Below the pieces are notes generated by a model that saw only the letters and a program-made list of their open reading frames with translations, did no database searches and was not told where the DNA came from. Shown in pieces: positions 14,398 through 14,971 of a stretch of DNA of 64,000 bases (position 1 is its first letter; each line of letters opens with the position of its first letter). A program made the position numbers and the translations under genes. The stretch comes from an uncultured Pelagibacteraceae bacterium. Its GTDB lineage: Bacteria > Pseudomonadota > Alphaproteobacteria > Pelagibacterales > Pelagibacteraceae. The stretch lies in contig CACJHW010000002.1 in assembly GCA_902593285.1 (NCBI GenBank), positions 62,001-126,000 on the forward strand. The letters are read 5' to 3'.

Positions 14398-14421
14398 CTT
14401 GTGGGGAGAAATCCCCACAAG
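14398..14421. terminator. Hairpin between convergent genes, putative terminator
   Basis: Perfect 9-bp stem CTTGTGGGG-agaaat-CCCCACAAG; T-rich tail on the minus-strand side. Confidence 0.65.
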
Positions 14422-14434
14422 CAAGGTTTAAGAC

Positions 14435-14881
14435 TTATTTAATTTCAATAAGCTTCTTTTTTTTATGTTCTGGAATTATTCTCTCACAAGATATTGTTAA
14501 AAGACCATCCTTAAGCTCAGCACCATTAACTTTTACATCATCAGCTATAGTGAATGATCTTGCAAATTGTCTTTGAGAAATACCTTTATGAATAATTTCT
14601 CCATTAACATCACTGTCCTCTGACTTATTAACTTGTTTTGTTCTTACAGTTAATAAATTGTCCTCGAACTCAACCTCAACGTCTTTTTTGCTAAAGCCAG
14701 CCAATGCTACTTCAATTGCGTAGTTGTCTTTACCTGTCTTTCGGATGTTGTAGGGTGGATAATTTGACTGCATTGTCAAATTCCCATTTCCCAACATATT
14801 TTCAAATTGGTCGAACATATCATCAAAACCAATTGAAAAAGGTCTAAGTGAGTTAAATATAGATAGATCCTTACTTGTCAT
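14435..14881 (-). CDS. ibpA: Small heat shock protein Hsp20
   Basis: Alpha-crystallin domain: YPPYNIRKTGKDNYAIEVALAGFSKKDVEV, GISQRQFARSFTIADDV. Confidence 0.95.
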   Translation of the reverse strand: MTSKDLSIFNSLRPFSIGFDDMFDQFENMLGNGNLTMQSNYPPYNIRKTGKDNYAIEVALAGFSKKDVEVEFEDNLLTVRTKQVNKSEDSDVNGEIIHKGISQRQFARSFTIADDVKVNGAELKDGLLTISCERIIPEHKKKKLIEIK

Positions 14882-14887
14882 AATATC

Positions 14888-14934
14888 CTCCTTTGTTAAG
14901 CAAGTTTATTTTTGCAAGCCCCATTAGGCGACTT
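14888..14934 (-). promoter_or_regulatory. ROSE-like RNA thermometer candidate in the hsp20 5'UTR
   Basis: Minus strand: hairpin I AAGTC(G)CC-taat-GGGGCTT (14916-14934); hairpin II CTT(G)CTT-aaca-AAGGAG (14888-14904) pairing the SD with a bulged G. Confidence 0.6.
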
Positions 14935-14943
14935 ACTAGATTT

Positions 14944-14971
14944 ATATGGTAATTAATTTTTTTTTTTCAAG
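14944..14971 (-). promoter_or_regulatory. RpoH (sigma-32)-like promoter of hsp20
   Basis: CTTGAA at 14966-14971 and CCATAT at 14944-14949; 18 nt between CTTG and CCATAT. Confidence 0.55.

Follow-up and report, generated by a model that had tools for sequence, protein, structure and literature searches.

The leader of hsp20 in the window, which is the whole stretch of 64,000 nucleotides of Pelagibacteraceae DNA analysed here, is very likely a short RNA thermometer of the ROSE type; its homology and its structure are well supported, and from homology we infer the temperature-dependent step. The gene itself (14435–14881, minus strand) encodes an IbpA-type small heat-shock protein of 148 amino acids (PF00011, 61.6 bits, 8.5e-17), with 37% identity to Escherichia coli IbpA. 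It is flanked by a prolyl oligopeptidase gene upstream on the same strand and by a convergent permease gene downstream, and a search of the whole genome, in an assembly that is 79%-complete, found no second hsp20. Elsewhere, one contig (G098:C13) holds 2 hsp20 copies with equal scores, 5.4 kb apart, possibly through duplication in the assembly. The leader contains two hairpins directly 5′ of the gene (start codon at 14881–14879), which is the placement of a ROSE-like thermometer before a small heat-shock gene. Its sequence, as quoted in the first-pass annotation that had proposed a ROSE-like element here, is present between 14934 and the start codon on the minus strand, the quoted string extending 3 bases beyond the interval assigned to it.

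Hairpin II (14888–14904, minus strand; CUU(G)CUU-AACA-AAGGAG) is predicted to occlude the Shine-Dalgarno sequence AAGGAGG (14887–14893, minus strand), and its base pairs are those that the annotation had described, with a bulged G, an AACA loop and a buried Shine-Dalgarno. Three outer pairs (C14904-G14888, U14903-A14889 and U14902-G14890) are followed by the bulged G14901 and then by three inner pairs (C14900-G14891, U14899-A14892 and U14898-A14893) below the loop. This 3′-proximal hairpin carries UUGCU (14899–14903, minus strand) in imperfect pairing with AGGA, matching the U(U/C)GCU motif of the ROSE literature (PMC3669281); its anti-Shine-Dalgarno strand reads CUUGCUU and does not present the four U of a fourU thermometer. 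Each of the 89 Pelagibacteraceae leaders that were parsed has the UUGCU and AGGA core with its four pairs intact, the bulged G and the closing C-G pair, and this invariance means that covariation cannot test the core pairs. The flanks do vary, from CC...GG without an apical U-A, through AC...GG with an apical U-A and AC...GU, to UC...GA in other families. The comparison of SAR11 leaders that had been proposed as a check returned conservation, together with covariation in hairpin I. In a wider alignment of 80 sequences (A4) that was fitted to the model, the flanking pair of hairpin II is CG in 29, AU in 9 and UA in 3 of the rows, and the core pairs almost never vary. Three sister-family rows of this alignment (L037, L039 and L061) are out of register, matching on upstream hairpins and not on the ROSE hairpin.

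Hairpin I (14914–14936, minus strand; GUAAGUC(G)CC-UAAU-GGGGCUUGC) has the described form with the bulged G14929, and at 9 pairs it is 2 pairs longer than in the annotation. ROSE-like thermometers have at least one additional 5′ hairpin, and covariation shows this one to be a genuine, structurally selected RNA element. Among 85 distinct Pelagibacteraceae leaders from six genera, two-sided changes occur at 7 of the 9 pairs, and 97% of the helix cells are paired. The covariation score is reached by none of 500 shuffles and collapses when the partners are slid by one to three columns; RNAalifold, unprompted, returns exactly this helix, and the bulged G is invariant.

Upstream of the leader, a sigma-32 (RpoH) promoter is predicted at 14944–14971 on the minus strand, with CTTGAA at 14966–14971 and CCATAT at 14944–14949; the published RpoH1 consensus is CTTGAA-N15-16-CCTATAT (PMC4843759). 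A box of the CTTGAA-N16-CCATAT type precedes 88 of the 89 leaders, 86 of them with identical spacing, and the genome encodes its own rpoH (364.5 bits). The −10 part ends 7 nt 5′ of hairpin I in 77 of the 89 parsed leaders, and about 7 nt in the window. From this geometry a transcription start is predicted near 14936, and transcription of hsp20 thus probably begins at the foot of hairpin I. A start inside the hairpins would have told against the earlier proposal, and the answer on that point comes from promoter prediction. The sole leader lacking a sigma-32 box is that of L119 (genome G057), a divergent hsp20 in a genome of the genus, in which both ROSE hairpins are kept and a sigma-70-like promoter, TTGACA...TATAAT, replaces the box.

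Homology extends well beyond the family. Searched against its own genome, the leader model gives one match, at 95 bits, with the runner-up at 13.9 bits, and in other alphaproteobacterial families it matches hsp20 leaders at 33–47 bits. Its good matches outside the order, in a sample of 241 genomes of the class, are hsp20-like leaders (L129–L134); further matches (L135–L137) are not hsp20 and were discarded as false positives. Of the 80 alphaproteobacterial hsp20 leaders in the class sample (L178–L257), 63 have U(U/C)GCU beside the Shine-Dalgarno, which places the SAR11 leader within an already known kind of ROSE element. An Rfam search of the window at gathering thresholds (43 bits for ROSE_3, RF02523; 45 bits for ROSE, RF00435) gave no match, and the leader is not filed as a member of either family. 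Run below threshold, the cmsearch that the annotation had called for does find both models at the leader, end to end, at 22.2 bits (E 0.0083) for RF02523 and 17.9 bits (E 1) for RF00435. We judge the threshold miss to be uninformative, because in a calibration on 144 genomes of the class neither model reached its threshold in any of them. Most of the sub-threshold matches in the class are clear ROSE leaders that carry UUGCU and RpoH-like boxes and share the signature of hairpin I. Set against the frequency of the motif in the class, the empty calibration suggests that the Rfam ROSE models are too narrow.

With the canonical alphaproteobacterial ROSE elements (RF00435; Bradyrhizobium ROSE1 and relatives), the leader shares the hsp20 target, U(U/C)GCU facing the Shine-Dalgarno with a bulged G, the (U/C)GCC...GGG 5′ hairpin and an upstream RpoH-like promoter, and the ROSE-type reading thus fits by anatomy as well as by homology. 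It differs in having two hairpins where those elements have three to four (PMC3669281), in lacking a long middle hairpin, in being very AT-rich and in scoring below the Rfam threshold. ROSE_3 has the same two-hairpin layout and matches end to end, whereas the SAR11 sequence has diverged to below its 43 bits. The two-hairpin form, which the annotation called minimal, is not new, as there is precedent in the short ROSE-like thermometers of Pseudomonas ibpA, which likewise have a 5′UTR of ~60 nt, two hairpins, the Shine-Dalgarno in hairpin II facing U(U/C)GCU and an unpaired AUG (PMC3669281). Those elements are gammaproteobacterial and have a GC-rich hairpin I, and their function is established by experiment, whereas the SAR11 leader is known from sequence. 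A sister family (f2, L032–L061) has two upstream hairpins and then a long ROSE hairpin, UUUAAUC(G)CU...AGGAUUAAA, and the order thus contains two- and three-hairpin forms alike. As for priority, a 2009 survey of structured RNAs in P. ubique has no heat-shock leader or thermometer entry (PMC2704228), and the main text of a 2019 survey of SAR11 strain HIMB5 lists 'a possible RNA thermometer' among intergenic regions, with the gene unnamed there (PMC6429828); on that text, priority for the bare claim of a SAR11 thermometer may lie with the 2019 survey.

A second feature of this mRNA lies within the gene. Codons 2–5 of hsp20 (ACAAGUAAGG; 14869–14878, minus strand) are synonymously frozen and are complementary both to the ROSE strand and to a motif in the 3′UTR. 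Across 30 genomes, codons 2–4 (ACA AGU AAG) show zero synonymous variation and are the only run of 3 frozen codons among 349 conserved columns. Codon 4 is AAG in 30 of 30 genomes, as against a fraction of at most 0.45 across 38 other conserved lysine columns, and AAG makes up 12% of lysine codons, with usage counted within the window. The 3′UTR motif, CCUUGCUUGU (14417–14426, minus strand), stands directly after the stop codon. In 43 genomes, this CCUURCUUG sequence is complementary to codons 2–5 over 9–10 bp, with a mean duplex energy of −14.1 kcal/mol. A terminator-like hairpin, CUUGUGGGGA...UCCCCACAAG (14398–14421, minus strand), overlaps the 3′ half of the motif, and as a caveat on any coupling, the CUUG half also pairs within the terminator.

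The distribution of the two sequences and their changes suggest a connection between them. The 3′UTR motif is present in 30 of 30 full loci of the genus (L030 differs at the first base of the motif), in all 8 loci of genus g5 and also in g6; it was not found in genera g2, g4 and g7, in L119 or in the sister family, all of which are without the full codon motif, and this co-occurrence across genera may reflect a single event. One locus of g4 (L065) has AGU AAG at the hsp20 start and no 3′UTR motif, a pattern in which the codon motif may predate its 3′UTR partner. Codon 4 is AAA in 5 of 399 genomes of the genus and in one more from a public scan. With a cut-off of 1 kcal/mol, which was set after the data were seen, the 3′UTR preference for AAG is lost in 4 of these 6 variants, compared with 0 of 43 other genomes. 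One variant (L278) carries the exact C-to-U compensation in its 3′UTR; in two (L281 and L279) a U stands opposite the altered position provided that a single base bulges out, in L294 the pair is lost, and in L280 and L282 the 3′UTR is uncompensated. The ROSE strand is unchanged in all six. At least 4 changes are needed to account for AAA on a tree of 36 hsp20 genes, and the chance of four losses landing on AAA branches is p ~0.006. Mutational drift towards AT was considered as a source of the coupled 3′UTR changes and is thought unlikely, though not formally excluded, because the terminator stems of the same genomes stay GC-rich.

This apparent coupled evolution suggests, as a still unproven proposal, that the start and the end of the hsp20 mRNA pair. 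We give an even chance to a two-part lock in Pelagibacteraceae, in which the anti-Shine-Dalgarno strand would hold the Shine-Dalgarno while CCUURCUUG would pair with codons 2–5 (CAAGUAAGG), thus clamping the start region from both sides, acting either in cis or, as a short fragment of the 3′UTR, in trans. In full-length mRNA folding, the clamp has a pairing probability of 0.12–0.14 on average and is high in four genomes. The closest precedent that we found for end-to-end pairing within one bacterial mRNA is icaR of Staphylococcus aureus, which also carries, in its own 3′UTR, a motif complementary to its translation start region (PMC3868564). The icaR motif pairs with the Shine-Dalgarno itself, as proven by mutation (PMC3868564), whereas the hsp20 mRNA, which shows both the complementarity to the start region and the apparent coupled evolution, would be targeted at codons 2–5, has comparative support and contains a ROSE element as well. 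A search of the accessible literature found no heat-sensing mRNA that joins an RNA thermometer with a 3′UTR clamp, and the coupling of the first hsp20 codons with the mRNA end, if real, would be a new twist on ROSE.

How might such a leader work? By the promoter prediction, RpoH-directed RNA polymerase would initiate at the base of hairpin I, giving a 5′UTR of barely more than the two hairpins. By homology, at normal sea temperature hairpin II would keep the Shine-Dalgarno paired, with UUGCU against AGGA and the bulged G weakening the helix, and on warming it would melt and permit Hsp20 to be made. Hairpin I would serve as a stable 5′ element that probably aids folding or mRNA stability. A different use of the same leader, which we consider possible at rather less than even chances and which may act alongside the thermometer, is that its chief role is to bind Hsp20, through IbpA-like self-repression in which temperature would titrate the protein onto aggregates. 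E. coli IbpA represses its own translation via the 5′UTR and requires Arg93 to do so, and R93 and Y34 are conserved in alphaproteobacterial IbpAs (PMC10474464). The Hsp20 of the window carries Arg and Tyr at the corresponding positions (ISQRQF for IAERNF and NYPPYN for GYPPYN), and with the required arginine conserved, self-repression is a plausible partner mechanism. By itself, however, self-binding leaves unexplained why a UUGCU strand with a bulged G faces the Shine-Dalgarno across the class.

Folding calculations bear on the remaining alternatives. The single-sequence fold z is −0.19 for 131 nt and −2.25 for 71 nt, which is weak evidence, and ViennaRNA temperature scans show no sharp opening of the Shine-Dalgarno, with other pairings often preferred once codons are included. 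For 28 of 57 ROSE leaders of the class the same calculation does not recover the ROSE register either, and the scans are thus not decisive either way. As codons 2–5 are complementary to the ROSE strand, single-sequence folds pair them, and the minimum-energy fold places CUUGCUU on AAGUAAG instead of on the Shine-Dalgarno. A two-state switch between these partners, with Shine-Dalgarno pairing as the off state, is unlikely. It is favoured by these folds and by the Pelagibacteraceae sequences, in which the first codons are the best match to the ROSE strand in the entire coding sequence in 29 of 30 genomes, but the complementarity is absent from genera g2, g7, G057 and the sister family, the pairing is almost gone once 45 nt of coding sequence are included, and when codon 4 becomes AAA it is usually the 3′UTR that changes, and not the ROSE strand. 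Such pairing was also tried as a general trait of ROSE elements and rejected, since in 63 genes of the class the own coding sequence pairs no better than a swapped one. Least probable of all is a temperature-independent leader whose hairpins shield the mRNA or fix a constant low translation rate, for although hairpin I is stable at every modelled temperature and the computed Shine-Dalgarno opening shifts little, the model with this flat response fails equally on other ROSE leaders, and the exact ROSE motif, its hsp20-only placement and the sigma-32 promoter all fit heat control.

The reading of the leader as a ROSE-type thermometer matters in several respects. The SAR11 element and its wider alphaproteobacterial relatives escape current Rfam thresholds. 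Should the 3′UTR coupling be true, RNA thermometers of the best-known class would gain a further layer; synonymous mutations could test the coupling directly. The SAR11 leader also offers a ready test of the sensing of surface warming, at much lower temperatures than those of rhizobia. SAR11 cells are among the most abundant in the ocean and have few regulators, and a heat sensor in nearly every sampled genome that bears hsp20 would reveal a form of stress control that has survived extreme genome reduction.
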